Shown here in pieces: positions 21,102-59,148 of a DNA stretch of 64,000 bases (the first letter of the stretch is position 1; each line of letters opens with the position of its first letter). The DNA is taken from positions 1 to 64,000 of the forward strand of contig CAIYLG010000012.1 in NCBI GenBank assembly GCA_903927025.1. Direction: 5' to 3'. The translations under genes and the position numbers were made by a program. Origin of the DNA: an uncultured Armatimonadota bacterium. GTDB lineage: Bacteria > Armatimonadota > Fimbriimonadia > Fimbriimonadales > Fimbriimonadaceae. Below the pieces are notes generated by a model. It saw nothing but the letters and a program-made list of their open reading frames with translations. It did no database searches and had not been told where the DNA came from.

Positions 21102-21159
21102 CTGCAAGACACTTACCATTCTGCTAGGCTCCGAGGTACGCTCTCGCCCGGACTGCAAG

Positions 21160-28700: not shown

Positions 28701-31700
28701 GGAGTCACGCTGATAGGTCCGGGAGGTGTTGCACCGGTTGGTCCTGGATTCATCACGATCTTTGGCGCCCCGTTGTTTCCTGGGCCTGGTTTGCCTTTGG
28801 CTTCGTTTGGGCCTTCTTTGACAGCCATTGAAGCGTTCGGCTTCTCGATCTTTGCTTTAGGTTGCTTGTACGGTACGGTTTGATCTGGAGTGGACTCGAT
28901 CCCTCTTTGCACCACGACACCGCGAGTCTCACCGGTCTTCGGGTCGATGATTCGCAGGGGTTGTTTCAGGTCGGAAGGTGCAAGGATTTCGTAACCGCGC
29001 TTGTAGATCATGTCTGCCAGCGGTCGCCTGACTTGGGCTATCTCGCCATTCTTGCCCTTCAGCCAAACGAACTTCTTGCCAGCGTCTGTGTAGAGGGGCT
29101 TGGCGATATTTGTCTTGTCGCCTTTGGCGTTGTTGAACACTGCGTCGATGTGCTGAGATGTCTTTCCGGTGGGGTGCGACTGCACAACATCGTGAGCTTC
29201 ATGCTCACCAAGGAACATGATTTCAGGCGTTCCGCTTACAGGCTGTCCCTTGAACTCTCCGTGGATGTAACTTGGCGAGTTGCCGTAATACTCCTTAGGA
29301 TGCGTTGGTGGCGCGCCTTCAAATGGAGTTCCTCCAACAGCTTCATTTAGCGCCTTGGCTTGAGCTTGGCTGTGGACAGTGAATTCGCCATCGCCGGGAA
29401 TCTTGATCGCTACGCCAGTTGATGGAGTTCCCTCGGGCGTGGTGTATCCAAGGATCGCCCCAGAGTGGCCCTTCTGTGCGTTTACATTGGGAGGTAGTTC
29501 TTCGTTGGCACTCTTGAGCTTCTTGGAGAGATAGCCAGTCTGAGACGGTGTTAGTCCAGCTTTGCCCTTGCGTTCTTTCTTCGACGCGGCCTCAACATTG
29601 GCTTCTTCGACAGGATCTGTCTCGACAGCTTTCGGCTTTGGTGCGTCTTCAGGCTTCTCACTGTCATCGTGAAGTGTCTCAACAGGATCGGAGATAGCAG
29701 GATCGGCAACGACCTTAGGAGCCTTCGGCTTCTTCTCTTTAGGCGTTTTTGGCTTTGGCTCAGCTTTTGGTGGCTCAGTTGGAGTGGGAGTAACTTCCGA
29801 CTGTGGAGCTTCCTCAGTTGGCTTATTCGCTTCCTCAATCGCTCGTTCTTTATTGAGCCTGTATTGTTGGTCCGCAATGCGGTTGAGGCCGCCATCGGGC
29901 CGAGAATCAGTGTGCTCAGACGTTGTTTGAGAACGCCTGATCGCTTCGTCCGGCTCGCGCCCGGAGTCGGGAGTGAACCTGACACCGTTATTCTCCCAAA
30001 CGTCGATGGCCTGTGCTATCAGGTGCGAATCAGTTACTTGGGTTGCTGCAAACCAGTCGAGTGCCTTGATCTGGCGTCTTCCGCTGAGCTTGCTCTTTGC
30101 AACTGCGTCCAGGACTTCGGGAGTCCAAATCTTGTGAATGTGCGAGTCATGATCGCCAGCGTGAGTCTCAACAAAGTCGGCGGCCTCAGGCTTGAGTCCC
30201 ATCCGTACAGCCTTGTCTAAAATCTGGTCATTGGCTTCATGTCGCGCCTGGTCCTCATCTCCACCGAACGCATCGCCAATCTGTTTGCTCGTTGGCTTCT
30301 CGAATTGCGGTGTCGGGTGAATACCCTCGGTGTTGTGATCGACTGGAATCCCCAAGCCAAACGGATCAGTTTCACGAGGGATGATCGGCTGTCCATGCTC
30401 GTCGTAAGTAACCGGCGAAATTCGCTTGTTTGGTATTGGACCTGGGTCCTTGCGGAATCCAGGTGTGGCAGGCTGTTCAGGCTTTGAATGCAACCCAAGC
30501 GGGTCGTCAATGTTGAAGCCGTTAGCAAGATTGCGCTTGGACTGGTTGAGTGCAATCTGTCCCAACCGATTTGAGTTGTCGAGGTTGGCGCCGTGGATTT
30601 CCTGTTGCTTCTTGAAGAAGTCGATTGCATCTCGTGTGGCTGCAGCTTCGCTCAGTCCGAGCTTTGCACCCAAGCGATAGAGCGATCCGTCGGCAATGGA
30701 TCGCTTGATGAAGCTCTTGAAATGTGCTCCTCCCTGAAGTGTTGCGGCCACATTCAGGAAGCGTCCGAACCTGTCCGAGCCGGATATGTTTGGATCGAAT
30801 ACGTTTAGGCTTTGCGCGGCCTGTCCAATAAGTCCGGGAACGTTCTTGATTCCCTGTATCGGGTGTTGAACGCCATAGGCTGCACCTTTTGCGACTTGCA
30901 TCGGAGTGGTGATTAGGCCACCAAGGAAGTTCAATGCTTCGTGAGCGTAAGGAGCGTCTTCGGCAGATAATCCGGTTGACTTCTCGTACACCTGAGACAG
31001 TGTCGAAGCCATTTCACCTATGTACTGATCGGCTGTAGCAAACCTCTTCTGATTCGGGTTGGGAGTTGTGAAGGCGTTCTGATTAGGAGCAAGGCCAGCC
31101 TCATTGATCTGGTTTTCGCGTTGTGCGAGGTTAGGGGCACCTTGGAATGGTCCTTGTTGTCCAGTGACTTTGCTGACTTGGCGTTCGGCCACGTTGCGTG
31201 GCAATGAACCGCCGTTTCGCAATTCGACGATGTTGTGCCCGTTGTCGAGCATCGTCTTGAATGCTTTGTAGTCGAATGGGAGCCGGTCGAATGGATCGGC
31301 TTTGGGCTTGTCCTCGGTAAGTTGGTATCCGCCCGTATGCCAAATGCCTCTGGCATCTGGAAGCGCTTCCATCTGGGCTTTGGTTCGCGGCTTGACTCCG
31401 TCTATCTGCTGGGGAAGCCCCTGCATCTTCTGAAGCTGAAGGTAGTAGTTCGAGACATCCTGCCTTTGACGTGTCGCATCGTAACCAGCGGCCTCAAGTT
31501 TCTGAATTGAGGCTTCCATCTGCCTCACTTGCTGTTGGAGAGACTTGACACGCTTGTCATCGACAATCGTCCGCGTGTCACCGCCGTTGATCCTGATCTT
31601 TACAGGAGTGTCGGAAACAGGTGGCTTGCCAAGGAGCGATGACTTCGTTTGAGGCTTCGGCTTTGACTTTGGTGGCGAATTCAGTCCGAGTGGATCGGAC

Positions 31701-31813
31701 ATAGTAAAGTTCATCCCGGCATTGCCGCGAAGCATCGTCTCAAAGTCGTTGGGTTTCTCCTGAGTTTTGCCTTTTGGCTTGAGCCCTAGCGGATCGTTTA
31801 TGTCGAACTGCAT
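25763..31813 (-). CDS. giant internal virion / polyvalent protein with zincin motif
   Basis: 2016 residues, largely soluble. A metallopeptidase-like motif H1325-E-L-G-H1329 sits in ETVLTHELGHAIDRKMG. Residues about 850-1000 have beta-rich segments (GEFTVHSQAQAKAL, PLRIIDPKTGETRGVVVQ), and the C-terminal ~600 residues are helical with several hydrophobic stretches. The N-terminal quarter repeats a short motif, [FN]-x-[IM]-x-DPLGL, at about 7, 40, 436 and (as DPFGL) 482. Very large late proteins of podoviruses are packed in the head and ejected with the DNA; polyvalent proteins with peptidase domains act on the host. That role is inferred. Its ATG shares one base with the stop of the preceding gene. 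Confidence 0.7.
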   Translation of the reverse strand: MQFDINDPLGLKPKGKTQEKPNDFETMLRGNAGMNFTMSDPLGLNSPPKSKPKPQTKSSLLGKPPVSDTPVKIRINGGDTRTIVDDKRVKSLQQQVRQMEASIQKLEAAGYDATRQRQDVSNYYLQLQKMQGLPQQIDGVKPRTKAQMEALPDARGIWHTGGYQLTEDKPKADPFDRLPFDYKAFKTMLDNGHNIVELRNGGSLPRNVAERQVSKVTGQQGPFQGAPNLAQRENQINEAGLAPNQNAFTTPNPNQKRFATADQYIGEMASTLSQVYEKSTGLSAEDAPYAHEALNFLGGLITTPMQVAKGAAYGVQHPIQGIKNVPGLIGQAAQSLNVFDPNISGSDRFGRFLNVAATLQGGAHFKSFIKRSIADGSLYRLGAKLGLSEAAATRDAIDFFKKQQEIHGANLDNSNRLGQIALNQSKRNLANGFNIDDPLGLHSKPEQPATPGFRKDPGPIPNKRISPVTYDEHGQPIIPRETDPFGLGIPVDHNTEGIHPTPQFEKPTSKQIGDAFGGDEDQARHEANDQILDKAVRMGLKPEAADFVETHAGDHDSHIHKIWTPEVLDAVAKSKLSGRRQIKALDWFAATQVTDSHLIAQAIDVWENNGVRFTPDSGREPDEAIRRSQTTSEHTDSRPDGGLNRIADQQYRLNKERAIEEANKPTEEAPQSEVTPTPTEPPKAEPKPKTPKEKKPKAPKVVADPAISDPVETLHDDSEKPEDAPKPKAVETDPVEEANVEAASKKERKGKAGLTPSQTGYLSKKLKSANEELPPNVNAQKGHSGAILGYTTPEGTPSTGVAIKIPGDGEFTVHSQAQAKALNEAVGGTPFEGAPPTHPKEYYGNSPSYIHGEFKGQPVSGTPEIMFLGEHEAHDVVQSHPTGKTSQHIDAVFNNAKGDKTNIAKPLYTDAGKKFVWLKGKNGEIAQVRRPLADMIYKRGYEILAPSDLKQPLRIIDPKTGETRGVVVQRGIESTPDQTVPYKQPKAKIEKPNASMAVKEGPNEAKGKPGPGNNGAPKIVMNPGPTGATPPGPISVTPKEANVLSQAATSFKKTFMPMSLGTGAKGMGLRLREHFATIAGQQAKDAYALKHAHDFFAKRSPADNYEFIKRMEAGDPQGSPELDQFAREIRQILDTKRAEVQALGKGLLKHYYTNYFPHLWEKPGVVSEWIRSQKRPLEGGKSALKKRSMSTIEEGLSKGFKPISDNPVDMVLAHAHQMDMFVNAQRLLKEMKDTGQVKYLRVGAPMPDGYTKLDDKLFQVNHNGVMLIHEAFDEKMFDQLHRLAHDLGVRTQRNVSLKGHPDAWGLESKAGIETKFGGPETVLTHELGHAIDRKMGLRRALFQGPERDVTLAEMKKLAALRYEGSTVSNSYKRYTEKQQEMVANLVHAYVHAPHLLEKIAPETTKLFEKFIDSKPQLKTLRDIKPSLVLGTNSAEIRAPGVHTLGHYIAPTEVAAVMNNALAKGLRHMFGIKQYMALNNSINQLNLGFSGFHYVTTGFNSMISEMALGLEEMSKGTKMNPGKLAKHAVMGVNPLTPVRDFKTGGEITKAFLDGIGDPKMRTIIDGVIKGGGRFQQPDIYTNEAIKRFQTALGRKEIWGTAKSAPFAATEWAGRHLMQQVVPRVKLGAFSQLLQADLDRLGGKPITEEQFRAMAAKAWDSIDNRFGQCVHDNLFWHPVVKDLAMASTRSVGWTLGTARELGGGALDVPGNILRLRKSPSGEIEPSHRLAYTAALPITVGLYGAMAQYLLTGKAPTRLRDLYFPLTGRKNADGTDERLSLPSYMKDYWGYTNDLVGTLKSKASPLASDLWSVITGTDYFGNKIVAEDDPWYKKGESLLKFYGKSALPFTASNIVNQFNDTGKVNYLALAGLNKASAAISKTRAIELAQHYAFEQVPKGSRTTEQANRQQQLSQVVGMIRNGEKGDALKKLRDLKVTNTEAKYVFSHSQGDVLPKMLKSLSIDQALNVYDVATQQEKRMIAGDIAKKLINATQNNKKNYSPEDFQNFIRRLKAGLPPAR

Positions 31814-37425: not shown

Positions 37426-38073
37426 TTAGTAGCGAATTCGTGGAATCCGCATTTGAACGGCGGCTTTGTCTCTCGACATGCGACCGTAGCTGTAAGTGAT
37501 AAGGCGTTCGTATTCGCGGGCCGACAATCCCGCAAAGAACTGGCTTTGCTCTGGGTGGTACATGTCGCACCAGCGTTCAAGCACTCTGTAGAGCCATGCA
37601 TTGCCCGTTCTCGCCATCGAAGGAAGCGAGTCGCTTATGCCTAAAGGCGTGTCCGATGTCTGCGAACAGAAGAGCGTGACAATTGGATATCCGGCGTTAG
37701 TGGAAGTGTCTGGAGCCGGAACTAGCCCAAGATTGCCACCGCGATCATAGATGTAATAGGGTGTTGACGGTGGGTAGTTGCGCCACGTCGGGTTATTGTC
37801 ATCGAGCCTGTCGATGTTGGTCTGCTTGAGCTTCTGGTAGTCGCCGGCCTGGGACATGTAGGCCGCTTCCCATATTCGCAGAACGGTGTCTGGCAGGGCG
37901 TATTCCTGCTGTCCAGCCGTAAGATTCACCATTACAGCAACGTCCGGCGTGAGCCTGATGTTCTCGATGATCTCTTGGTGAACGTCGTTGAGTAACGACA
38001 AGAACACTGCTTGCGGAATGTCCGCAAAGTGAGTCTGGGCCGCCGTGAACAGGTTGGTGACGGTTATCGCCAT
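37426..38073 (-). CDS. head-tail connector (adaptor) protein
   Basis: 215 residues, mostly helical, starting MAITVTNLFTAAQTHFADIP. Motifs FLSLLNDVHQEIIENIRL, QEYALPDTVLRIWEAAYM and SMARTGNAWLYRVLERWCDM resemble the gp4/gp11-type adaptors that sit between portal and tail hub. The position immediately before the hub gene supports this. It overlaps the upstream gene by ten bases. Confidence 0.6.
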   Translation of the reverse strand: MAITVTNLFTAAQTHFADIPQAVFLSLLNDVHQEIIENIRLTPDVAVMVNLTAGQQEYALPDTVLRIWEAAYMSQAGDYQKLKQTNIDRLDDNNPTWRNYPPSTPYYIYDRGGNLGLVPAPDTSTNAGYPIVTLFCSQTSDTPLGISDSLPSMARTGNAWLYRVLERWCDMYHPEQSQFFAGLSAREYERLITYSYGRMSRDKAAVQMRIPRIRY

Positions 38074-40145: not shown

Positions 40146-41057
40146 TTACGCTCCCACCGTTCCCCAAGTACCGTGCGCGTCTCTCCATCCGGCAAGCAAC
40201 TTCTGGGAAGCAACGTAGCGGTTGAACAGTCGCTCGTCCTTGGACAGTTTCTCGATGCTGTACGGCTTAAAGTGGATCATGAAAAGACCCTGTTCTTCGT
40301 TGTCGCTGTATCGAGCAAACCACGCCGTGTTCGACGTGTAGTAAGGAATCGTCTCGAACTCGATCTTCCAACGGGCGTATGCCTTGTCGTTGTTATTGGT
40401 GCCTACCAATCGCTCGGAATTCGCAATCGCCCAAGCACGTCCGTCGAGGGCAACGGGCACCTTAACGGTGATCGCACCGTCGTAAGGCATGATGTCACCG
40501 CGTGCAGACACCTGATTGCGCATGTCGGACTTCATCTGCTCGATGGCAAGAGGCCCGAAAGCGAGATTCGATCCTGTGCTGGAGATGTTGGACAGCGGAT
40601 AGCCGTTGTTGCTGTGTCCGCTTTGGTAGAGGGTTTCGCCTCCAACCATCCCGGCCACTGTCGAAGTAAATCCGAGATTGTCCAGTGAGGCCGCAATCAG
40701 GTTCTGCTTCAACATGAAGCTCTTCGCGATTGCTGGCTGTAGACCAACGATGATTCGGTACTGATCGCTCCATGCGACGTCATCGGAGAACTCGATCATC
40801 TTTCCGATTCGCTCGGGATAGAAGTTCTTCACGAACAGCGCCTGATAGTCGTCTGTTGGTGCGGCAGCGCCTTCGGCGAAATCTTCAGCAGGACCGAAGC
40901 CCGCAAGGGACTTCATCTTGTAGTAGCTCTGCTTTGTCTTGAGGACAGTGCCTACGATGCGTTCTGAGTAGTCGGTGTACTTCTCACTCTCGACTTTGAA
41001 CAGCTTGTCTATGCCTAGGTGACCGATGTCACCCAGAGATGTTTCTGTGAATGCCAT
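40146..41057 (-). CDS. major capsid protein, HK97-fold type
   Basis: 303 residues. The N-terminal part (MAFTETSLGDIGHLGIDKLF, EKYTDYSERIVGTVL, FAEGAAAPTDDYQALFVKNF) and the long helix FMLKQNLIAASLDNLGF are like Mu gpT-type major head subunits. The E-G-A-A region, F-x-x-R-I-G-K-M-I strand and a C-terminal FEKLSKDERLF-like helix fit. The size, and the position after a decoration-like gene and a scaffold-like gene, strongly support this. The usual AGGAGCACGATAAG ribosome site precedes the ATG. Confidence 0.72.
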   Translation of the reverse strand: MAFTETSLGDIGHLGIDKLFKVESEKYTDYSERIVGTVLKTKQSYYKMKSLAGFGPAEDFAEGAAAPTDDYQALFVKNFYPERIGKMIEFSDDVAWSDQYRIIVGLQPAIAKSFMLKQNLIAASLDNLGFTSTVAGMVGGETLYQSGHSNNGYPLSNISSTGSNLAFGPLAIEQMKSDMRNQVSARGDIMPYDGAITVKVPVALDGRAWAIANSERLVGTNNNDKAYARWKIEFETIPYYTSNTAWFARYSDNEEQGLFMIHFKPYSIEKLSKDERLFNRYVASQKLLAGWRDAHGTWGTVGA

Positions 41058-42632: not shown

Positions 42633-42876
42633 TGATTTCTGTGTCTCCTTTCTGTGCAGCCAAATCGGCCGCAAATCGTTTGCTAAGCAACTCGTCCAAG
42701 AGCCTGTTCTCCCCCACCAGCTTCAGGATTTCCGATTGTGCTTGGTCTGACGGAAGACTCAGCGATTGGCGGTAGATGGACTCCTTGTTGCGTGACTTGA
42801 GGCGGGAGAGATGGCATTTGATTTCCTGCCATTCCAGGGTGATTCGGAGCCATAGCTCCCATGCTTCTTGGGTCAT
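42625..42876 (-). CDS. small helical protein overlapping the portal gene's 3' end
   Basis: 83 residues from an ATG at 42876 with a strong AAGGA site 6 bases before it. Its first 194 bases lie inside the end of the portal gene in a different frame. The protein looks genuine: MTQEAWELWLRITLEWQEIK then helices SEILKLVGENRLLDELLSKR and FAADLAAQ. The portal's overlapping tail is proline- and glycine-rich and poorly constrained. It may be a head-assembly or scaffold partner; the scaffold-like gene starts eight bases before its stop codon ends. Confidence 0.65.
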   Translation of the reverse strand: MTQEAWELWLRITLEWQEIKCHLSRLKSRNKESIYRQSLSLPSDQAQSEILKLVGENRLLDELLSKRFAADLAAQKGDTEIND

Positions 42877-44566
42877 TGGGCATTCCTTGCGGGGTGGGTG
42901 CCGGTCGTTCACGCTGAATCTTGTCGGCGCCGGGAATACCGGCACAAGCGAGACTGAGCTTTGCGATTTCGTAAAGATCGAACTGAGAGGCAGGGTTTTG
43001 ACCCATCGCCCAAAGCTGTTGCAGAGTCGCTAGGCGGGCCATCGGAGCATCAGCAGGTGTCTTCCCGTTTGGTTCCCAGGACACTGCTCGCTTAAGATCG
43101 TCTTGCGACACCTTTTGCTCGGGATAGAGCAATCGCCAGACAATGTATTGGTCTGCAAGGACTTCGCAAGTGAATGCGGCCATCTGTCCGAAGGACAGCG
43201 TGAACATTGCGATGTACTCTTGAAGCCCGACACTCATGCCCTGCTGAATCGCTTGGGTTTGTGTTGCCGTTAGGCTCGATTTCGCTTCTTCGGCACCGAG
43301 TGAGTTAGTCGAAACTCGGGCCACCATGTCTCCGTTTCGCTCGCAAGCGGCGATCTGTTGGAGCAATGGCTGAGCGTTAAATTGTGTTGTTGCTTGGAAC
43401 GGCTGGCCACCACCGCCTTCTGTTTCAAGGTAGCTGTACGGCTTGTATTGGCTGTACTTTTCGTTGTCTAGCCGTGGTCCGAAGATCGGCGGGGCCGAAG
43501 CCATGTAGCTTCCGTTGTAGACAAGTGCGTTGAGCTTGTCATACAAGTCTTGGAGTGGGGACAGATTACGTCCAACGCTTTTTCCGCTCCAAAAGTATTC
43601 GTCTGTTAGCAGTTCGCTCGTGAAATACGGTGGCCGCGAATATGGCCAAGCCTGCAAGTCGAGCAGATAATTCTGATACGGAGCCAAGACAGCCCGGTAG
43701 TAGCGTTCAAGGCCTCTTTCATCCGGCAACTTGACGTACAGTTCGAACAGTTCGACAAGTTCTGTTTCAGGGAATCCGCTAAAAACGCTGGGCGACGTCA
43801 ATGCTGAAACGATTGACATCATGTCGTCGTGGGCTTCTGGCGAATCACCACCCACTAGTTCGTAGTCTCGGTTGTCGAAGTATTCGCCAAGCCTCTGGCG
43901 TTCCTTGATGTAGGCAAGTCGAGCGTAAAATCGGTGGCCGACAAGCATTGCCGACTGAATTCCGTCTACTGCCGAAGGCGCAATTACGAAGTCGTTCGGG
44001 TGGATCGAGTCGATCTTGATTCCGGCAAACCTTACTGGGCCGTGTTGAATGTCTTCGATTTGATCGGAGCCTTCAGGAAGAATCCCACCGGGTTGAAACT
44101 CGAATGCGAGTCGCCAGACACCTTTGTTGTGAAGGGCCGCGTTAAGCGCGACACCTCGGCAAGCCCTGTCAAATCCGCCTGACTCCCACTGTCGGTGAAC
44201 GATGGCTTCTAGCCTTGTCGAAAGTTCATCGCCAAGCCCGCTGACAGCGAGCATGAGTGGGTGTTGACGCGCTACGACACTGCAAATCTGTCCGACAAGT
44301 GTGTCGATTCGCGGTTGAAGGAACGGAATGTGTAGCGGAGACATGCCCTCGTCTGGGGCCGTGTCATAAGCTGGAGGATCGTTGCGCTGATAGCTCTCGG
44401 TTCGGAGCCAAATCTCTGGAAGTGAGCCTTTCGCGGTGATCGCTTGTTGGACAAGCGTCGAAAGCTGGAGAGCGACTTTATTTCGGTCGGACTGAGTCCT
44501 AGCGATCTTTGGAATCTGGCGGACTATAACGACTTCTTCAATGTCGTTGTTAGTCTCGTTGGTCAT
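42683..44566 (-). CDS. portal protein
   Basis: 627 residues. The N-terminal helical domain has HIPFLQPRIDTLVGQICSVV, LMLAVSGLGDELSTRLEAIV and GVALNAALHNKGVWRLAFEF. Later come DFVIAPSAVDGIQSAMLVGH, GRNLSPLQDLYDKLNAL and a long helix region (EEAKSSLTATQTQAIQQGMS). These match P22-type portals of podoviruses in size and order. A low-complexity proline tail (about 560-627) overlaps another gene. It forms the dodecameric DNA channel at one capsid vertex. Confidence 0.78.
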   Translation of the reverse strand: MTNETNNDIEEVVIVRQIPKIARTQSDRNKVALQLSTLVQQAITAKGSLPEIWLRTESYQRNDPPAYDTAPDEGMSPLHIPFLQPRIDTLVGQICSVVARQHPLMLAVSGLGDELSTRLEAIVHRQWESGGFDRACRGVALNAALHNKGVWRLAFEFQPGGILPEGSDQIEDIQHGPVRFAGIKIDSIHPNDFVIAPSAVDGIQSAMLVGHRFYARLAYIKERQRLGEYFDNRDYELVGGDSPEAHDDMMSIVSALTSPSVFSGFPETELVELFELYVKLPDERGLERYYRAVLAPYQNYLLDLQAWPYSRPPYFTSELLTDEYFWSGKSVGRNLSPLQDLYDKLNALVYNGSYMASAPPIFGPRLDNEKYSQYKPYSYLETEGGGGQPFQATTQFNAQPLLQQIAACERNGDMVARVSTNSLGAEEAKSSLTATQTQAIQQGMSVGLQEYIAMFTLSFGQMAAFTCEVLADQYIVWRLLYPEQKVSQDDLKRAVSWEPNGKTPADAPMARLATLQQLWAMGQNPASQFDLYEIAKLSLACAGIPGADKIQRERPAPTPQGMPNDPRSMGAMAPNHPGMAGNQMPSLPPQVTQQGVHLPPIAESSVRPSTIGNPEAGGGEQALGRVA

Positions 44567-45247
44567 TTAGGCCGCTAGCGCCACCTCGTCTGGGACTATG
44601 ATCGCCTCGATTGCATCATCGGAACAGACACCAAGATCGGGATCGCCCTCGATCATGTCTATCTGCAGCATGGCGTTCGGGTTGTATAGGACTCGCGTGC
44701 CAACTGAGAACTCAGAGTCAGGTCCGGCGCTCACGATGGTGCCGATGTTCGTGCGATAGACACTGTTGTCGGACAGGTGGATAAGTCCTTCCTGCTTGAC
44801 AGTCGGGTCGCGCTTCACAAGTAGATTTCGCTTGAGTGGTGTCATGTTGAGTTCGTTGTCTAAGAGGGCTAAAACCGAGTCGCTCCAGTCGTAGAGTTCG
44901 CATTCACCGGGAGCCGCGCCATAAACGCCGTAGCATCGGACTTCGCCCTTGGCCTTGTAAGTGCCAGCTTCAAAGTCCGTTCGCCAAGTGCCATCGTAAG
45001 CGCGCACGACAACAGCGTCACCTGGCCGCAAGCCAGTGTCTGAGCCTGCCGAAAGCACGATTCCAACATCAGGTCGCTCGTTTCCGGCGACTTTGTCTGG
45101 CAAGTGAATCAATCCGCGCTTCTTTTCGAAGGGAGCCATCTCGATGACAACACGGCCACGTGGACACCTAATGTGCCTTGATCCGTTTTGCCAGTCGATC
45201 TCGGGAAGTCCCTTAAGGTGAATTTGGAGAACGTTCTCGCCTTGCAT
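44567..45247 (-). CDS. tandem GroES-like (double Cpn10) co-chaperonin
   Basis: 226 residues with two successive Cpn10 folds. Domain 1 (about 30-130): GRVVIEMAP, mobile-loop-like G45-L-I-H-L-P-D51, VGIVLSAGSDTGLRPGDAVVV and the closing WSDSVLALLD. Domain 2 (about 137-222): KRNLLVKRD, G154-L-I-H-L-S-D160, IGTIVSAGPDSEFSVGTRVLY and the closing SDDAIEAIIVPDE. GLIHL corresponds to the GGIVL contact with GroEL. T4 gp31 is a single-domain phage Cpn10; a double one resembles chloroplast Cpn20 in layout. It likely directs host GroEL to fold the capsid protein. It lies between the terminase-side genes and the portal gene. Confidence 0.82.
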   Translation of the reverse strand: MQGENVLQIHLKGLPEIDWQNGSRHIRCPRGRVVIEMAPFEKKRGLIHLPDKVAGNERPDVGIVLSAGSDTGLRPGDAVVVRAYDGTWRTDFEAGTYKAKGEVRCYGVYGAAPGECELYDWSDSVLALLDNELNMTPLKRNLLVKRDPTVKQEGLIHLSDNSVYRTNIGTIVSAGPDSEFSVGTRVLYNPNAMLQIDMIEGDPDLGVCSDDAIEAIIVPDEVALAA

Positions 45248-45555
45248 TAATTCTTGTGCTTGGTGTGTCGGCGCCGTTTGTGAGCCTTGACAGTTACTGT
45301 CTTCTTGGAGACAGTTCGTTTGTGCGACTTGACATGGGTGTGCTCACCGAGTTCCTTGTCTGCCTTTCGATCCACCTTTTCTTCGGCGGCCTTGGACATC
45401 TTCCCGGCGTGTTCCTCTTTGCTTGCGTAACTCTTGGCTACTCGCGCATGTGTTTTGTCGTTGATCGGATAGGAGCCGTGTCCGGGTGCTTTCTCCGGGA
45501 ACACGAAGTCACTCTTCGGCAGAGACTCTCTCTGCTTTGAAGTGAGCTTCGACAT
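45247..45555 (-). CDS. SAFxxP/HAR-motif phage protein with basic tail
   Basis: 102 residues. MSKLTSKQRESLPKSDFVFP and SYPINDKTHARVAKSYASK are the signature of a small phage family (KLTxxxRxxLPxSxFxxP ... YPIxDxxHARxAL), which I recall as DUF6582 without certainty. The C-terminus is very basic (KSHKRTVSKKTVTVKAHKRR). The stop overlaps the GroES-like gene's start. The function is unknown; the basic tail suggests nucleic-acid contact. Confidence 0.62.
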   Translation of the reverse strand: MSKLTSKQRESLPKSDFVFPEKAPGHGSYPINDKTHARVAKSYASKEEHAGKMSKAAEEKVDRKADKELGEHTHVKSHKRTVSKKTVTVKAHKRRRHTKHKN

Positions 45556-45786: not shown

Positions 45787-46030
45787 TTTCTTCTCTCCTG
45801 TCCATCGAAACGATTGTCTCAATCCTGGTAAGCGACTTAGAGATGTCGTGATACTGTGTTTCGAGACTCAATAGCCGTGCTTCAACACTCGTTATTCGCT
45901 TGTCCGTACTAAACTTGTTGGCCTGGTATCGCACGGCGAATGTGGCAAGGCCAATCATGAAAGCTCCAATGCTCACCAGCAGCGGCCATAGCTTTATCAC
46001 TGCGTCAAGGGTCGTTTCGTCTGGGTGCAT
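45773..46030 (-). CDS. membrane-anchored coiled-coil phage protein (holin- or spanin-like)
   Basis: 85 residues: one membrane segment (about 12-33, IKLWPLLVSIGAFMIGLATFAV) and then a heptad-rich helix (ITSVEARLLSLETQYHDISKSLTRIETIV). Phages often encode such proteins as class III holins or DUF2730-like components near the terminase or lysis genes. No endolysin was found next to it. It overlaps the TerL nuclease half by 26 bases. Confidence 0.6.
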   Translation of the reverse strand: MHPDETTLDAVIKLWPLLVSIGAFMIGLATFAVRYQANKFSTDKRITSVEARLLSLETQYHDISKSLTRIETIVSMDRREENGNH

Positions 46031-46922
46031 TGCTAGTTAATTTCCGAACTGAGTTGCCTGTTCCCTTGATGATTTTCTGCGCTTCCATAACTGCGTACTG
46101 AAGTGCGTCGGAACAGTGCGAATACTTGTCTTTGATGGGCAAGAGTAAGTCTTTACTTGTGGCCTCTTTACCGACAGGTGGCCGTAGTCGATATCCACCT
46201 CGCATGGCCGCAAGTAGAGTCGGACAGTTTTTGCCGTTGATAAACATCCTTGGCGATTCAGCGTCGATCCAATCTGTCAAAGCCCATGTCACCGCACCTA
46301 ATCGGGCGTGTAGGTTGTTCGTCATCGGCTTGATGTCAACGCCGAACTTGCGCGCCTCCGACCAAGCTGATGTTCCGTTTGCACCAGATCGCTGGGTGAC
46401 TGTCTGATCACCGCACCACAAGATGTCATCCCAGAATCCGGGAAACATCTTTGTCAAGATCGCCAGCACACGCGGACAAAATTGCGACATGGGTTCCGCG
46501 CCGTCGTGCGTGATCTCCAAAATGGCCGCAAGCTGATAGAACGGCGGTGGGCCGACTTCTAAGAGCACAGCAGCCGGATAAAGTGTCTGACCGCAGTCAA
46601 TGCCGAGAATGTAGCGGCTTCCTTTCTGTAGCTCCCAATCGTTCTGTTGGAGATACAGCGGACAGTGAATCGCGTCCGAGTAGTCGGCGAAAACAGGTTC
46701 GCCGTCGAACACAGATACGTCAAGCTCAAGTTCACGTCTCCATTCCCTGGATGGAATTCCAACCTTCGCTTTCTCTGCCCATTGCGGAGTCTTGTCCGGG
46801 TCGGCAGAGTAGTGGATGCGGAGTACGCGACAGCCGCTCCTCGATGTGTAGAGTTCACAACCGAAAGGAACGGGCGGAGGAATCGTCTGAGTTAGTCCTG
46901 CGCGTTGGAAGCTGGAGGAGTG
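46005..46922 (-). CDS. large terminase, nuclease half (no usable start in frame)
   Basis: The open frame runs from just after a TAG at 46923-46925. Conserved terminase sequence begins near FQRAGLTQTIPPPVPFGCEL and continues through RVLRIHYSADPDKTPQWAEK and WRRELELDVSVFDGEPVFA. The RNase-H-like nuclease residues follow in YILGIDCGQT, ILWCGDQT and HCSDALQY. The only in-frame start codon is a GTG at 46712, which would drop ~70 conserved residues. Joined to the ATPase half at 47047, it would give a normal-length TerL without the ~125 bases between. Expression could need frameshifting from the small overlapping gene, or the terminase may be inactive. Confidence 0.75.
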   Translation of the reverse strand, partial: HSSSFQRAGLTQTIPPPVPFGCELYTSRSGCRVLRIHYSADPDKTPQWAEKAKVGIPSREWRRELELDVSVFDGEPVFADYSDAIHCPLYLQQNDWELQKGSRYILGIDCGQTLYPAAVLLEVGPPPFYQLAAILEITHDGAEPMSQFCPRVLAILTKMFPGFWDDILWCGDQTVTQRSGANGTSAWSEARKFGVDIKPMTNNLHARLGAVTWALTDWIDAESPRMFINGKNCPTLLAAMRGGYRLRPPVGKEATSKDLLLPIKDKYSHCSDALQYAVMEAQKIIKGTGNSVRKLTSNAPRRNDP

Positions 46923-47050
46923 CTAGTAGACACGCCAAGAATCGCCTGGGCATCTTTGAGCAAAGCTACAACTTTCGTGAGATGGAACGTGTTGGCGATC
47001 AAGATGGCCGCCGTTAGGATCGTGATGATGTCTGTGTGATTTAGGTTCAT
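46892..47050 (-). CDS. 52-residue membrane peptide inside the terminase locus
   Basis: Its ATG overlaps the ATPase-half stop (GCATGA). It encodes MNLNHTDIITILTAAILIAN, then TFHLTKVVALLKDAQAILGV and a polar tail ending SNAQD. One clear membrane segment (about 8-24) is present, so it could be a holin-like or superinfection-type peptide. Its last ~30 bases overlap the nuclease-half frame at -1. The ribosome site is weak, and coupling to the upstream gene is likely. Confidence 0.55.
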   Translation of the reverse strand: MNLNHTDIITILTAAILIANTFHLTKVVALLKDAQAILGVSTSTPPASNAQD

Positions 47051-47772
47051 GCTGCAATTAGTTCCAAAAATTCTTCGTTAGGCGATGCGTTCGCAATCAT
47101 CGTCGGGTGGCCGCCAACTGAAGTCGGCGATCCCTGACAAACTGTTACGGCTTGGCCCCAAGTGTTTGCGAGGCGATCATAAGCGGATCCCTCTTCGCAA
47201 CAAACGCCTGTGACGCCAGTACCTCTGAACGACTCACCGCGCTGATTGATCGAAGTGATTCGCGAGCCGTTTGGCAAGATCAAGCTGTCTAGTCGCTGAT
47301 CGTTCATCGGGCCGTAGAACAGGGAGTCGTCGAGTCTCCAATCTGGATTACGCTTCTGAATCTGATCGTACATGTACCAAGAACGCCATACATGTGCTTG
47401 TGCGTCGGAGAATGTCTGGCCGGCGATGAGTTGATTCGCCTGAGACAGTCCAGCGTCTTGAAGCTCAAGCGCGCGACAGAGCCACGAGATGATAAGCCGT
47501 CGCGATTTGAGACAGATGAACGGCTGGCCTTGGGCCTTAGAGTCGGTCCAGTGCCACACGAAGAACTCGATATAGTCCTTTCGGGGAAGCTGTTGTGTCT
47601 GCCGATCTGCCTCGTTCCACGTCCAAATCTTGTCGTAGATGAAAGCCAGGCGGGATTCGTAGGAGCCGTCGTTGTAGGGAGCGGGCCATAGACATCTGCC
47701 TTCGCCCATTATTTCCTTGGCCGCATAGAACGCATGTTCCATCGCTTGAAATGGATCGTTCTTTGATGCCAT
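47047..47772 (-). CDS. large terminase, ATPase half
   Basis: 241 residues from MASKNDPFQAMEHAFYAAKE at 47772, whose ATG overlaps the small-terminase stop (TGATG). The ATPase motifs are an adenine/Walker A-like FICLKSRRLIISWLCRALEL, then FYGPMNDQRLDSLILPNGSRI and GVTGVCCEEGSAYDRL as Walker B with the catalytic EE. The coupling motif region is TMIANASPNEEFLELI. It stops directly after LIAA, where other terminases continue into the linker and nuclease. The motor domain is thus present, but separated from the nuclease frame. Confidence 0.78.
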   Translation of the reverse strand: MASKNDPFQAMEHAFYAAKEIMGEGRCLWPAPYNDGSYESRLAFIYDKIWTWNEADRQTQQLPRKDYIEFFVWHWTDSKAQGQPFICLKSRRLIISWLCRALELQDAGLSQANQLIAGQTFSDAQAHVWRSWYMYDQIQKRNPDWRLDDSLFYGPMNDQRLDSLILPNGSRITSINQRGESFRGTGVTGVCCEEGSAYDRLANTWGQAVTVCQGSPTSVGGHPTMIANASPNEEFLELIAA

Positions 47773-48122
47773 CAAACGTCCTTGATTGCCTTCCGGCAAT
47801 CGGAAATCCATTCGTGAAGATGCTCTTCAGACAGATACTTAGCTGTTACTCTGGCGATTGTGGCAAGCACTTCTTCGTTGCTGAGCGACACTTCGACACG
47901 TTCGCCCAAGCCATATTGGCCGAGCGCTTTGATCGCGTCGATTCTGTCTTTGGATCGGTTGGTGGTGCCATCGGCGATCTGTTCGAGTGTTGAAATCCGT
48001 TTCTCGAACGCCAGCTTGCAGGCTTCTCGAACTGCGGACTTCGGACTGCCAGCACCTGGCCATCCTCCCTTTCTTGGGTTGTTGCCAATGTAGGCGCCTA
48101 AGTTTGCCGAACTGTCTGCCAT
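47772..48122 (-). CDS. putative small terminase subunit
   Basis: 116 residues from the ATG at 48122. The N-terminal NPRKGGWPGAGSPKSAVREA is followed by helices KLAFEKRISTLEQIADGTTN and KDRIDAIKALGQYGL, then EVSLSNEEVLATIARVTAKYL. A GRPxGS-like loop plus a helical oligomerisation region next to TerL is usual for TerS proteins, which recognise the pac or cos site. The call rests mainly on position and layout. Confidence 0.6.
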   Translation of the reverse strand: MADSSANLGAYIGNNPRKGGWPGAGSPKSAVREACKLAFEKRISTLEQIADGTTNRSKDRIDAIKALGQYGLGERVEVSLSNEEVLATIARVTAKYLSEEHLHEWISDCRKAIKDV

Positions 48123-48202: not shown

Positions 48203-48700
48203 TTAGGCGTCTTCACCTGCATGATTTGAAGGAAAGTTCAGGTGTGCAAAGTCGCCGTGTAATTCGATAGCCTTGCTATCGTAAGCCCTTGCGGCCTCTT
48301 CGGGCGTCGTGAAGTAGCCAAGGTGATAACGATTTCCGTGGTGTTCGATATGCGATCTGTAACGAATGTCGTTACGACGTGGAGAAAGACTTACGCCCTT
48401 GAAACCGGTCTTGGTATCAAGTCTAACTTTCTGGTTAGCGATGTTCTGGGACTGAGTACATATCCGAAGATTGGACCGCCTGTTGTCAAGAGTGTCGCCG
48501 TTGATGTGATCAACTTGCTCACCGATCTTGGCATCAAGAATAAGACGATGCAGAAAGATAGCTTGCTTACCAGGTTTGGTAACGACATACACATGTACCT
48601 TGGAGCGATGGGCGTGCCATACATATTGGGAGACCAATTCATAGTCTTCATCATCAACAGTAGCTGTATAGCCTTGTGTCAACGGAATCGTGTAGCTCAT
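48203..48700 (-). CDS. HNH endonuclease with AP2 DNA-binding domain
   Basis: 165 residues. The HNH core is IFLHRLILDAKIGEQVDHIN then GDTLDNRRSNLRICTQSQN, with the D-H and N-x-x-x-N-L-R elements. The AP2 domain follows as GFKGVSLSPRRNDIRYRSHI, RYHLGYFTTPEEAARAYDSK and AIELHGDFAHLNFP. This is a free-standing homing-endonuclease type common in phage genomes. Its neighbour is the terminase module, which is also interrupted. It may be responsible for that insertion, or may be an independent parasite. Confidence 0.85.
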   Translation of the reverse strand: MSYTIPLTQGYTATVDDEDYELVSQYVWHAHRSKVHVYVVTKPGKQAIFLHRLILDAKIGEQVDHINGDTLDNRRSNLRICTQSQNIANQKVRLDTKTGFKGVSLSPRRNDIRYRSHIEHHGNRYHLGYFTTPEEAARAYDSKAIELHGDFAHLNFPSNHAGEDA

Positions 48701-50268: not shown

Positions 50269-50624
50269 TGGCTCCCCGCTTCGGCGGGGACCTGCTCCCC
50301 GATGAAATCCTCGCCTCGTTGCCCGATCTGTACGCCACTGAGACAGACGCCGACCCGATGGTGTCCGTGAAATTGTTTACGCCGGACGCCGGATGGACAT
50401 GGTGGGTGCTCGAAGCCAGCCGACGGGACGTCGAGGGGATCGTTGAGACGGACGACGAAGACGACGTGATTCTGCTCCGTCTTGTCCAAGGGCAAGAAAC
50501 GGAGCTTGGCTATGTGTCCCTTCGTGAGTTGGCATCCTACCGCTCAGGGTTTGGGCTTGGCATTGAACGCGACTTGCACTGGAGACCTAAACGTTTGTCC
50601 GAGATTCGAGACTCGCTTGCATGA
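50265..50624 (+). CDS. DUF2958-family protein
   Basis: 119 residues. The pattern LPDLYATE, MVSVKLFTPDAGWTWWVLEA, ILLRLVQGQETELGYVSLRE and GLGIERDLHWRPKRLSEI matches DUF2958 (LPxLYxTE ... KLFxPxxxWTWYxxE ... GxExELGYFSLxEL ... GLxIERDLxFxP). The family is widespread on phages, plasmids and integrative elements, with no known biochemistry. The start is one of two adjacent ATGs. Confidence 0.8.
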   Translation: MMAPRFGGDLLPDEILASLPDLYATETDADPMVSVKLFTPDAGWTWWVLEASRRDVEGIVETDDEDDVILLRLVQGQETELGYVSLRELASYRSGFGLGIERDLHWRPKRLSEIRDSLA

Positions 50625-50668
50625 ACACCGGGGGATGCGGCAGCATCCCCACCATAAGGAAACCTCAG

Positions 50669-51349
50669 ATGAAAAAGAAGCAAATCAAGACGGACGCACC
50701 ACTCCGAGCAGTGATCTATCGGCGCGTCTCGACGGACGACCAAGCCGAAAGCAAGTTGGGTTTGGAAGCCCAGGACGAAGCCACCAAGTCCATGTGCGCG
50801 TACAAGAAGTGGACCATCGTCGGCCAGTTCTGCGACGAAGGCGTCAGCGGACGCAAAGAATCACGACCTGACTTCGACAAGGCATTGTCGATGCTCGCCA
50901 ACAAAGAAGCCGACGTTCTGGTAGTGAAGTCCCTCGATAGGATCAGTCGATCAGCGATCCACTTCCTGAAAGTCATGCAAACAGCGGACGCCGAAGGATG
51001 GGACGTCGCGATTCGTGATCTCGACCTCGATACGCACAGTGAGGCTGGCCGCATGGTGCTGACGATTCTCGCGGCCGTCGCAGAATGGGAGGTGGAAGTG
51101 ATCCGCCGGCGAACACGGGACGGACTCAAAGCCAAGATCGCCAGAGGGGAGAGAGTCGGACGCGAACGTGTGGTGGGTGACGACGTCGTAGAACGGATCG
51201 TGAAACTGAAAGACGCCGGGACGACATTCAGAAGCATAGCTTCGGCATTGGACCTCGATGGCGTTGCCACCCCCAACGGTGGCAGGGCTTGGCAATACTC
51301 CACCGTGAGGAAAATCTACGACAACGCCAAGAAAGCCATGAAAATCTAG
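50669..51349 (+). CDS. serine recombinase (resolvase/invertase type)
   Basis: 226 residues from MKKKQIKTDAPLRAVIYRRV. The catalytic domain has YRRVSTDDQAESKLGLEAQD with the nucleophilic serine, VSGRKESRPDFDKAL, VLVVKSLDRISRSAIHFL and the long helix MVLTILAAVAEWEVEVIRRR. A C-terminal helix-turn-helix (IVKLKDAGTTFRSIASALDL then WQYSTVRKIY) completes a small resolvase. The phage already has a tyrosine integrase, so this enzyme may resolve dimers, invert DNA or act on an origin. An upstream in-frame start at 50621 lacks a good site; GGAAACCTCAG precedes 50669. Confidence 0.88.
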   Translation: MKKKQIKTDAPLRAVIYRRVSTDDQAESKLGLEAQDEATKSMCAYKKWTIVGQFCDEGVSGRKESRPDFDKALSMLANKEADVLVVKSLDRISRSAIHFLKVMQTADAEGWDVAIRDLDLDTHSEAGRMVLTILAAVAEWEVEVIRRRTRDGLKAKIARGERVGRERVVGDDVVERIVKLKDAGTTFRSIASALDLDGVATPNGGRAWQYSTVRKIYDNAKKAMKI

Positions 51350-55422: not shown

Positions 55423-56403
55423 TTAGGCTGACAACACCTTGCCGATCCAATCAAAGACAGCCTGAGCAACCGGTACAACAATGCCGTCGCCGCACGCATG
55501 CCGTCTTTGTGCATCTGATCCGATGCATGCCGTGAATCCGGCTGGAAGCCCCATCAACTCTTCGTGTGCCGTGACAGACAGCTTATGTACCTGTCCATCC
55601 CATCGGACAATTGCGCGGCCCGTCTTGGTGAGTGTCACCATATGCCCAATTCCAAAACTACTATTCGAATGATTGCAGTGAAAAATCGGTTTGCTTCGCC
55701 AACTGTCTGGAACTTTGCCGACACCGATAAAGCTGTCTGCTAGGTGCTCAAAGCCAGGCTTGCCGTGTCTGTTTATTCTGTTTCGCAAGTTCGAAAGTGT
55801 CTCAGGCTTCACGACGTCCCCAAGCCAGTTCTGAGGCACTGAAGACAGATTCACGACACTTGATGGCACTCTGAAGGCGACTCGGTTGACAGGACGATCT
55901 TTGCGAACATACACCAAAAACAGTCGCTTGCGGGATTGTGCGAGCCAGTTCTGAGAACTGAGTGTCTCGCGAAAGATCAGGTGATAGCCAAGTCCCTCGA
56001 TCAAGTTGAGACAGGTTTCGACATCCTTTACACGTGTGCTGTACAGCATCGCTGGAACGTTTTCGATCAGGACAACTTCGGGCCGCACTTCATCAACAAG
56101 CCGGATGGCTTCGAACAGTAAGGCTCCGCGATCATCGTTCAAACCCTCTGCCATACGGTTGCCGACGCTAAAACTAGGACAGGGTGTCGAAACAAACAGT
56201 AGGTTGGGATCGCACAAGTCGCGGCCACAGACAGTTCGCAGATCGGCAAGATGCCTTGCTGTTGGATAATGGAAAGCAAGACATTTTCGCCTCGCGTCGT
56301 CAATCTCAACTGTTGAAACGCATTGCGCGCCGGACAGTTCGGCTCCGTAACTTCCTAACCCGGCTCCCGCGGCCAATGAGGCGAAGCGAATTCGAGCGTT
56401 CAT
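55423..56403 (-). CDS. third DNA (cytosine-5) methyltransferase, PCP variant
   Basis: 326 residues from MNARIRFASLAAGAGLGSYG at 56403, whose ATG overlaps the upstream stop. Motif I is FASLAAGAGLGS; motif IV is STPCPSFSVG with C75, so the usual P-C-Q is P-C-P. Motif VI is VVLIENVPAML, motif VIII AQSRKRLFLVYV, and the C-terminal motifs are TAHEELMGLPAGF and CGDGIVVPVAQAVFDWI. No adjacent nuclease is evident, so it may be an orphan phage methyltransferase that shields phage DNA from host restriction. Confidence 0.88.
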   Translation of the reverse strand: MNARIRFASLAAGAGLGSYGAELSGAQCVSTVEIDDARRKCLAFHYPTARHLADLRTVCGRDLCDPNLLFVSTPCPSFSVGNRMAEGLNDDRGALLFEAIRLVDEVRPEVVLIENVPAMLYSTRVKDVETCLNLIEGLGYHLIFRETLSSQNWLAQSRKRLFLVYVRKDRPVNRVAFRVPSSVVNLSSVPQNWLGDVVKPETLSNLRNRINRHGKPGFEHLADSFIGVGKVPDSWRSKPIFHCNHSNSSFGIGHMVTLTKTGRAIVRWDGQVHKLSVTAHEELMGLPAGFTACIGSDAQRRHACGDGIVVPVAQAVFDWIGKVLSA

Positions 56404-56810
56404 ATCCGCTCGAATTCCTGCAAGAATAATCGAGCGGACTCCGCATTGGTCACCTTTTTCCTTGTGCTCGACCTCACCCATGCTTTTGCACGGAAATCCT
56501 TGTCGAACCAAACATTAATGCCCTCCACACGAACGACAGTAACGATGATCCGTTCGCGGCCAGCAATCTTCGTTCGCTTTCGAAACCGCGCACCTTCCTG
56601 GAATATCTCCGTCAAGTTGAAAGGCGTATTGAGCGTTGCTGTCTTGGCTGTATTTGGCGACTCCACGACTGTGACAGGTATTTCCACCTTGGCCGTGGCC
56701 GCAGGGGGTTCCGGCGGTCCTTCCGCCAGTGTCTTTTCGATCAGGGATGCCAGTAGCGCCTCAGGGTTTGAGGACAGAGAAAGTAGCCTCTTAATCTTGT
56801 CGTTTTCCAT
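56400..56810 (-). CDS. hypothetical protein upstream of the methyltransferase
   Basis: 136 residues. A helical N-terminus (MENDKIKRLLSLSSNPEALL) and a Pro/Ala linker lead to a beta-rich C-terminal part (GARFRKRTKIAGRERIIVTV, NVWFDKDFRAKAWVRS). It is coupled to the methyltransferase by an ATGA overlap. It could be a regulatory or DNA-binding partner; no family is recognised. Confidence 0.58.
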   Translation of the reverse strand: MENDKIKRLLSLSSNPEALLASLIEKTLAEGPPEPPAATAKVEIPVTVVESPNTAKTATLNTPFNLTEIFQEGARFRKRTKIAGRERIIVTVVRVEGINVWFDKDFRAKAWVRSSTRKKVTNAESARLFLQEFERI

Positions 56811-57448: not shown

Positions 57449-57790
57449 GTGTCCAGCATCACGAGCCAGAGAGACTACGCTAGCGCCACTGCAAAGAACA
57501 AGTTGGGTTTGACCACCACAACTTTGGGAAAGGGGATGGAGCTGTTTTCATCCCCAATCCCTTTCAGAGTCGATATGGAAATTCCGCAGTCATCAAAGTC
57601 GCAAACGATGGAAGTAGCTCCCCTGTTACTTCCCGTCCGGGTGGTGGCGAAAATGTTGGGAAGATCGAAGTCGCGGATTTACGAACTTTGCCTATACGGT
57701 GAGCTTCGCTCGATCAAGGACGGTGCCTCGATTTTGATCCCCGCCGACGAACCAGCGAAATGGCTTGCCCGGAAGCTGAAGCAACGCTAG
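57449..57790 (+). CDS. excisionase-like HTH protein
   Basis: 113 residues, but the true start may be at 57536, 57575 or 57608. The conserved part is LLLPVRVVAKMLGRSKSRIY, ELCLYGELRSIKDGASILIP and ADEPAKWLARKLKQR, an HTH_17 / Xis-type domain. It converges on the integrase gene; the two stop codons overlap at CTAG (57787-57790). An Xis role fits its place beside the integrase. A 7-bp hairpin (GGGGATG / CATCCCC) lies inside its 5' part. Confidence 0.62.
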   Translation: MSSITSQRDYASATAKNKLGLTTTTLGKGMELFSSPIPFRVDMEIPQSSKSQTMEVAPLLLPVRVVAKMLGRSKSRIYELCLYGELRSIKDGASILIPADEPAKWLARKLKQR

Positions 57791-59148
57791 AGCTTCCAGC
57801 CCCCTGACAGTCTTCTCTGCGCGTCCTTGAACGCTTGCGTAGTTATGTCGGTGTAGCTCTTGAACGTGACTGTGTCGCCCGTGTGACCCATCAAGCCCAT
57901 GCGTGTTGGTTCCGGTATGCCGACTTCAGCGGCGTAGCTGGCAAATGAGTTCCGCGTGTCTCGGAAGACGATCTTGTCCCAAACATTGGGAAGATGTATC
58001 TTGCGTTGCTTTGCGAGCGTGATAACAGAATTCAAGTCTTTGTTATCTGTCTTTTCGCCTTTCGCCACCAACGTCATTCGTGAACAGAGTGTTGTCCAAG
58101 CAATGCGAAAGTTAGCAGCCTGTTTCAGCTTTCCGTCAGCAGTTCCAAAAACCAAACCGTCGCCATTTTCCTTGAGTCGCTTCATGATCGGTAGGAGTTG
58201 GTCGGGCACTGCCACCCATCTGTATCTGGGTTCGGCTTGTGTTCCGCGTTTCGGATACGACAACGCCTGAGGCACCACGTCGCCGTAGGGAACGCCATCC
58301 TCATCGACGTGACGCGCATGTCGCCGGAGGGCACGGTCAACAAGAACGGCTTTCTTTTCCAGGTCGATTCGTTTCCCTCGCAAAGCCATGACTTCACCGT
58401 GTCTCATCCCTGTGAGCATCCCAATGGTGAACATGTCGGCGATCCATCGGACTAACAGTCCTCGCTCGACTAAACAGTCCAAGACAAACATGACGTTGGC
58501 GAAGTCTTGGCTTTCCATCGTCGTCCGTGCGCGCATTGAAGGAGCAATAGATTGGAGATTCTCAAATGGATTGAGCATCTCAAAGAACTCCATATCAATT
58601 GCGGTTTTGAAGTATCCACCCAGGTCGATTCGACACTCTTTGAGTTGCGACAAGCCTTTTTCGCCTTGGAGTTTGGCTTCCATCTCCGTAACCCATTCCT
58701 GAGCGTGTCTGCGTCTAACTGTCTGAAGCGGCCACTCACCCCAATACGGCTCGATGTGGTTCTTCCATCGTCCTTCTTTCGCTGAAGCCCGGACACGGCT
58801 GAGATTCTTCCAGGTGTGCGCCCTACAGTATTCGTACAGATCGCCCACTGTGTGAATTCCGTCGTTCGTTGACGACTTGACCAAAACTTGACCAATTCCG
58901 CCTTCTTTGCGGTTTTCGGGGCGCGTCGATTCTGCGTATTTGACAGCGTCTTCAGGCTTGGCGAATGACTTCACGGGAAATCGGACAGGACGACCGCGTT
59001 CCGTTCGCCTGACTTTCACCACCCATCTCCCATTTGGCGTCTCTTTTGTGCGGTACTGGGTTGCCGACGAGAAATACACGCTCTCGCCAGTGTGGAGGCG
59101 TCTGTTTAGCTTGTCAGAAAGCTCGGGTTTCTTTCCCAAATCGCTCAT
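57787..59148 (-). CDS. tyrosine-type phage integrase
   Basis: 453 residues. An N-terminal arm-binding part (about 20-90) and a core-binding SAM-like domain (about 100-200, TVGDLYEYCRAHTWKNL ... HAQEWVTEMEAKL) precede the catalytic domain. The catalytic residues are R249 in GMLTGMRHGEVMAL, R399 in FRDTRNSFAS, H422 in LMGHTGDTVT and Y432 in FKSYTD. The box II histidine is replaced (R-D-T-R instead of H-x-L-R), which still occurs in some integrases. The gene reads away from the tRNA-Thr site, where it inserts the phage. A leaderless or weakly signalled start lies ~110 bases from the attachment site. Confidence 0.93.
   Translation of the reverse strand: MSDLGKKPELSDKLNRRLHTGESVYFSSATQYRTKETPNGRWVVKVRRTERGRPVRFPVKSFAKPEDAVKYAESTRPENRKEGGIGQVLVKSSTNDGIHTVGDLYEYCRAHTWKNLSRVRASAKEGRWKNHIEPYWGEWPLQTVRRRHAQEWVTEMEAKLQGEKGLSQLKECRIDLGGYFKTAIDMEFFEMLNPFENLQSIAPSMRARTTMESQDFANVMFVLDCLVERGLLVRWIADMFTIGMLTGMRHGEVMALRGKRIDLEKKAVLVDRALRRHARHVDEDGVPYGDVVPQALSYPKRGTQAEPRYRWVAVPDQLLPIMKRLKENGDGLVFGTADGKLKQAANFRIAWTTLCSRMTLVAKGEKTDNKDLNSVITLAKQRKIHLPNVWDKIVFRDTRNSFASYAAEVGIPEPTRMGLMGHTGDTVTFKSYTDITTQAFKDAQRRLSGGWKL

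Follow-up and report, generated by a model that had tools for sequence, protein, structure and literature searches.

The window analysed here is a stretch of 64,000 nucleotides from an uncultured Armatimonadota bacterium. Among phage head genes it carries an uninterrupted open reading frame, starting with ATG, whose 226-residue product holds two Cpn10 (GroES) domains in tandem. The features at and around this gene, with their coordinates in the window, their strand and the basis of each assignment, are as follows.

44567–45247, minus strand: tandem Cpn10 (double GroES-like) co-chaperonin gene, 226 aa (Pfam Cpn10, 41.5 bits; AF2 with Foldseek and VIA-align)
44858–45175, minus strand: Cpn10 domain 1, residues 25–130 (Pfam, 18.0 bits; GroES fold, Z 8.4; tree clade, 96/87)
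45095–45115, minus strand: mobile-loop motif 1, GLIHLPD, residues 45–51 (sequence; low pLDDT; hydrophobic residues in 8/8 N-domains)
44594–44851, minus strand: Cpn10 domain 2, residues 133–218 (Pfam, 27.4 bits; GroES alignment over residues 134–218, Z 10.1)
44768–44788, minus strand: mobile-loop motif 2, GLIHLSD, residues 154–160 (sequence)
42683–44566, minus strand: portal protein of SU10 type, 627 aa (PF23899, 55.9 bits; junction sequence)
45247–45555, minus strand: small basic conserved phage protein, upstream (phrog_16160, a family of unknown function, 62.8 bits)
46005–46712, minus strand: terminase large subunit, nuclease part, separate ORF (43% identity to the C-part in locus L010; GIDCG and HCSDALQY)
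47047–47811, minus strand: terminase large subunit, ATPase part, separate ORF (35–38% identity to ORFs of loci L010 and L011)
40146–41057, minus strand: putative major capsid protein, 303 aa, ~33 kDa (capsid-position protein of Planktothrix phage Pra-JY27, E 4e-6)
37426–38073, minus strand: head/adaptor structural protein (phrog_399, 50.9 bits)
57787–59148, minus strand: tyrosine integrase (PF00589, 29.7 bits)
59259–59307, no strand: putative att site, a 49-bp perfect repeat inside tRNA-Thr (59260–59334)
18775–18823, no strand: putative second att site, the same 49 bp

The co-chaperonin gene is packed tightly between its neighbours, as the stop codon of the upstream small protein overlaps its ATG (TAATG) and the portal ATG directly follows its own stop (TAA-ATG). 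The initial annotation had described a phage-borne tandem Cpn10 adjoining the portal gene, and both the Pfam match in two stretches and this junction uphold it; the podovirus label that came with it, still putative, fits the SU10-type portal. The co-chaperonin stop and the portal start are in contact, overlap or are separated by at most 4 nt in seven of eight loci, the junctions in genomes G080 and G127 having been read by eye. In the exception, G074, the portal lies approximately 7.8 kb away, and this locus looks like a disturbed element. The sequence of the junction makes the two genes appear translationally coupled. Terminase genes lie upstream of the co-chaperonin gene, and the loci have capsid, adaptor and head-closure genes in common on its downstream side; four related loci conserve the putative capsid protein, whose counterpart in Pra-JY27 carries a Mu GpT note.

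Three related phages, namely that of the window, L010 (4898–5755 and 5768–6523) and L011 (10905–11639 and 12493–13356), have the large terminase subunit divided at a similar point into ATPase and nuclease ORFs; the spacing between the two ORFs is 12 nt, about 300 nt or about 850 nt. In the window, the frame of the nuclease part remains open beyond the ORF on its upstream side, as far as about 46800. Two large-terminase coding sequences are likewise present in podovirus ct2G2228, and the terminases of G080, G127 and G085 are single ORFs. Beside the terminase genes of the window lies an HNH endonuclease with an AP2-like domain, of the homing-endonuclease type (48203–48700, minus strand).

The 49-bp repeat beside the integrase bounds what the sequence indicates to be a prophage of ~40.5 kb, inserted in a tRNA-Thr gene. 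Partial copies of the repeat at 15497–15521 and 15565–15593 suggest that a second or older element lies next to it. Besides the tyrosine integrase, the prophage contains a serine recombinase (50621–51349, plus strand; resolvase domain at 133 bits and a partial recombinase domain). Its tail region includes an ORF of 2016 codons (25763–31813, minus strand) with a marginal PHROG tail match only, and for which Pfam and NCBIfam gave no match. A WD40 beta-propeller protein of 1267 residues (11396–15199, minus strand) lies outside the prophage. Just inside the prophage end, a restriction-modification cluster occupies 19054–24127 on the plus strand, and a third C5 methylase is found at 55423–56511:

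19054–20235 and 21160–22191, plus strand: two C5-cytosine methylases
22172–24127, plus strand: restriction enzyme of the BbrUII/HgiDII family (611.7 bits)

Elsewhere in the host genome there are two ordinary groES and two groEL genes, on contigs C53 and C14; both groEL genes lie outside the prophage contig. A GroEL partner therefore exists in the host.

The presence of two Cpn10 domains is confirmed by several lines of sequence evidence. PF00166 (Cpn10) matched the whole protein in two stretches with an E-value of 1.4e-10. When the halves were searched alone, the C-half lay above the curated cut-off of 21.1 bits, and the N-half lay below it (E 0.003). We also trained an HMM on 18 GroES proteins, taken from the loci retrieved for the analysis, and it gave 11.9 bits for the N-half and 18.7 bits for the C-half; both values exceed every one of 2000 shuffles per half (maxima of 5.7 and 6.0 bits, respectively), and the best other tested ORF of the window reached 4.5 bits. 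The phage GroES family phrog_3188 recognised domain 2 only (25.8 bits, E 1.4e-5). As had been claimed, each half carries a mobile-loop motif and the closing helix-strand, the latter seen by alignment as VRCYGV...WSDSVLALL and as DLGVCSDDAIEAIIV. A fusion of two genes by frameshift was considered and rejected, given the uninterrupted frame and the existence of five tandem relatives.

Structure models were calculated with AF2 from shallow alignments (6 and 8 sequences). The whole protein, with the six-sequence alignment, reached a mean pLDDT of 69.4 and a pTM of 0.69, and the N-half alone a pTM of 0.70. For the whole model, both Foldseek and VIA-align ranked first a tandem protein, the Cpn20 chain of Chlamydomonas (7ekq_R; Foldseek E 2.3e-5; VIA-align Z 10.9, rmsd 3.6 over 166 residues), followed in VIA-align by GroES (Z 10.1 to 8.2) and T4 gp31 (Z 7.0 to 7.3). 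Because domain 2 fills the match list of the whole model, the N-half was modelled separately; its 15 leading VIA-align rows were all of Cpn10 type, the best with a Z of 8.4 (3nx6/1wnr) over 65–71 residues, and dehydrogenases scored 5.8 or less. A Z near 8 is modest when taken alone, and together with the sequence evidence it makes the predicted GroES fold of the N-half convincing. The refuting outcome named with the initial annotation, a predicted structure in which one half or both lack the GroES fold, did not occur: GroES-like models were obtained for both the whole protein and the N-half.

The two GLIHL motifs are written in different codons (GGA TTG ATT CAC TTG versus GGA CTT ATC CAC CTG), which indicates that the pair does not stem from recent DNA copying. 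The core of the loop is I-H-L, with an unusual central histidine, and not I-V-L or I-I-L. Hydrophobic residues are kept in the domain-1 loops of all eight members, and in G110 and G127 the loops of domain 2 have become degenerate. As expected of a mobile loop, residues 42–57, around motif 1, have pLDDT values below 50. The roof beta-hairpin of GroES is missing from the alignment of both halves, each of which has ~10 residues fewer between the AGxD segment and the PGD/VGT turn; this hairpin is present in GroES and absent from gp31, and does not strictly define the Cpn10/GroES superfamily.

We searched for relatives in 291 genomes of the phylum. A sequence search retrieved proteins from G095 (two copies, 43–44% identity), G110, G127 and G080, and a profile search added G085 and G074. 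Five of these seven relatives are tandem proteins and two, those of G080 and G085, consist of one N-type domain each, both under Pfam detection; with the window protein, six of eight members are tandem, with lengths of 192–274 aa. Pfam Cpn10 matched in two stretches in G110 (45.8 bits) and in both G095 copies (35.5 and 32.3 bits), and the tandem assignment of G127 and G074, both below Pfam significance, comes from the alignment only. Since domain 2 is missing or degraded in some relatives, a single domain may be enough in this lineage.

A phmmer search of the PDB with the single window sequence missed Cpn10 and returned weak, unrelated matches only, so that an alignment profile was needed. The family profile placed Chlamydomonas Cpn20 first (E 7.9e-9, positions 20–195). 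In the phylum it matched 208 of the 291 genomes, and among the matches listed most were GroES-sized frames whose alignment fell in the N-domain region of the profile; this gives independent support for the N-half.

In the G095 pair, pN versus pS was 0.19 versus 0.78 for the N-half and 0.25 versus 0.82 for the C-half; with low pN and saturated synonymous sites, both halves are under purifying selection. In a domain tree without plant sequences, in which 6 of 23 nodes are starred as strong and most deeper forks are weak, the N-domains group as a clade (support 96/87 for the seven from Armatimonadota) and share a motif specific to their lineage, R-x-Y-D/H-G-x-W; no pairing of N-domains with C-domains is seen. 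A recent internal duplication was rejected on this lack of pairing and on the differing GLIHL codons.

Searches for viral relatives by sequence gave no match for the window protein in phage records or, as a single sequence or an alignment, in IMG/VR. The window portal had no match in either collection, the single-domain protein of G085 had none in phages, and the G110 protein gave matches at E ≥ 1 only.

We consider it probable, from the sequence, that the protein serves the phage as a co-chaperonin, capping host GroEL in order to fold a head protein, either portal or capsid. It would be the double-domain co-chaperonin, of Cpn20-like architecture, of a temperate phage of ~40 kb. During lytic growth its chains would come together in a ring built from linked Cpn10 domains, which would bind host GroEL through the hydrophobic mobile loops, the retention of these loops being the reason to expect GroEL binding, and would close the chamber in place of host GroES so that the phage head protein is folded. 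Three or four chains would place six or eight domains on the seven-fold GroEL ring. Double-domain Cpn10 has been discussed for plastids and the apicoplast, and how an even number of domains sits on the seven-fold ring is still debated (PMC3542282, PMC5780408). Three or four chains are plausible in view of plastid cpn20, for which tetramers, or both trimers and tetramers, have been reported, and of concatenated GroES with six to eight domains, which is functional with GroEL (PMC3542282, PMC5780408).

The likeliest clients would be the portal, given the apparent translational coupling, or the capsid protein. The tight gene junction favours the portal, and the precedent of T4 favours the capsid protein, for which cage size alone would be a weak argument since the putative capsid protein has only 303 residues. 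The initial annotation had suggested that a double-domain cap might alter the folding cage for the capsid protein. The portal is ~69 kDa, above the usual limit of the GroEL cage. The 627-residue portal, whose start codon comes at once after the co-chaperonin gene, is as good a candidate for the client as the capsid protein, or a better one. Features that count against a co-chaperonin role are the I-H-L loop core, the degenerate domain-2 loops, the single-domain members and the two host groES genes.

Some of these features would also suit a repurposed fold that works independently of GroEL and directly on the portal, either aiding its assembly or forming a minor part of the portal vertex, with the function residing in the conserved domain 1. 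The tight junction with the portal gene, the separate clade of the N-domains with its R-x-Y-D/H-G-x-W motif and the absence or degeneration of domain 2 in some members point this way. We nevertheless regard such a role as unlikely, considering that every domain-1 sequence keeps its hydrophobic mobile loop, that the model has its lowest confidence in this loop, as expected of a genuine mobile loop, that the equivalent protein of phage phi18:3 carries no virion MS/MS note, and that Cpn10 proteins with a classical GGI loop occupy the same kind of head module in ct2G2228 and Pra-JY27. Hetero-rings or competition with host GroES, by which the protein would bias GroEL towards phage clients or inhibit host folding, would find a parallel in plastid Cpn20, which acts in hetero-oligomers with Cpn10 (PMC5780408), and host groES is indeed present twice; the phage and host GroES families are very diverged, however, and we hold modulation of the host chaperonin to be distinctly improbable.

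Two further readings arise from individual database matches. Entry 7ekq, the source of the best structural match, is a chloroplast ClpP complex with Cpn20, Cpn23 and Cpn11 chains, and a cap for ClpP or another ring machine could be imagined; yet that match reflects the tandem fold, and nothing in the operon points to ClpP, which makes this very improbable. A fragment of a GroES-like alcohol dehydrogenase was suggested by PF08240 (ADH_N), at 23.8 bits just above the cut-off. Cpn10 scores far higher, the gene lies in a head operon, two Cpn10 domains fill the 226 residues with no match to a Rossmann domain, and dehydrogenases align with the whole model at a Z of 6.3 or less, against 10.9 for Cpn20 and 10.1 for GroES. 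The fragment was thus rejected, its probability being negligible.

The co-chaperonin reading can be set against known phage systems. Like the window protein, T4 gp31 is phage-encoded, has a GroES fold and lacks the roof loops (PMC6318259); it aligns with domain 2 at Z 7.0 to 7.3 and with the N-half at 6.6 to 7.9. Gp31 is a single-domain heptamer, whereas the window encodes a fused pair at the portal gene. The view in the initial annotation that known phage co-chaperonins have one domain each is not supported as a rule. We found 140 INPHARED records matching GroES, and in the 18 that were checked with Pfam the annotated Cpn10 ORFs were single-domain-sized (about 85–160 aa) except for gp096 of Cellulophaga phage phi18:3. 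A fold search of viral models (BFVD) also returned tandem-length proteins, including S0A356 from phi18:3. Gp096 (200 aa) is annotated simply as GroES; its predicted structure aligns along the whole chain with the window protein, Pfam places Cpn10 in its C-half and leaves its N-half unrecognised, and it is probably a tandem Cpn10. Near-identical copies occur in phi13:2, phi19:3 and phi46:3. The gene lies just upstream of terminase and portal, with a small gene and the terminase intervening before the portal; many of its neighbours have the virion MS/MS note that it lacks, and the hosts of phi18:3-type phages are Bacteroidota, unlike that of the window prophage. The window-family profile gave no significant match to gp096, with no detectable sequence similarity, which gives no support to a shared origin of these two tandem proteins.

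Podovirus ctfjg026 encodes a hypothetical protein of 187 residues just before terminase and portal (L099, 5896–6459; UOF82516.1). With 24% identity to gp096 (E 9e-3), it looks like a diverged tandem Cpn10, judging from this weak similarity and a reading by eye. Both ctfjg026 and phi18:3 have a separate single Cpn10 elsewhere. BFVD gave three more tandem-length fold matches (A0A516L046, A0A516LTQ1 and A0A516LJK4), as well as an uncharacterised 129-residue protein of Cellulophaga phage phi14:2 (Crassvirales; S0A2F3) whose fold resembles that of the Cpn10 model (E 2.3e-4); Pfam Cpn10 was not found in the phi14:2 genome. In ct2G2228, Pra-JY27 and Pelagibacter phage HTVC027P, a gene for a single-domain Cpn10 with a loop of the classical GG type precedes the capsid gene within the cluster of head genes. 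In ct2G2228 and Pra-JY27, where the loop is GGI, this gene follows just after the portal-position gene, while that of the window precedes the portal. Thus the tandem Cpn10 of the window is probably not unique, given gp096, and single-domain Cpn10 in head modules was known already; tandem phage forms labelled simply GroES are probably present in public data. A search of the open literature, with subscription papers and preprints outside its scope, retrieved no paper remarking on a tandem phage Cpn10.

We advance more tentatively, as a possible though doubtful joint reading, that, outside plastids, phages evolved a Cpn20-type lid, even-numbered, roofless and coupled to the portal gene, that is dedicated to portal folding or assembly. 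It would comprise a six- or eight-domain cap for the seven-fold GroEL ring, synthesised along with the portal through translational coupling, and an architecture that arose or was kept separately in phages of Armatimonadota and of Bacteroidota (Cellulophaga-type). A natural, small, prokaryotic double Cpn10 with single-domain sisters in related phages would offer a clean system for the even-number question. The fixed portal junction suggests that the portal, and not the capsid alone, may depend for its folding on a dedicated co-chaperonin of the phage.

The closest architectural counterpart is plastid Cpn20, to which the initial annotation had rightly likened the protein, as the Chlamydomonas chain is the top full-length PDB match by both profile and fold. 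Both are head-to-tail double Cpn10 proteins in one chain, with a mobile-loop motif in each domain. The window protein differs in being bacterial and prophage-borne, in having no transit peptide and in sharing ~19% identity with Cpn20. It also has no roof hairpins, in contrast to apicomplexan cpn20, which is reported to keep its roof domains (PMC3542282).
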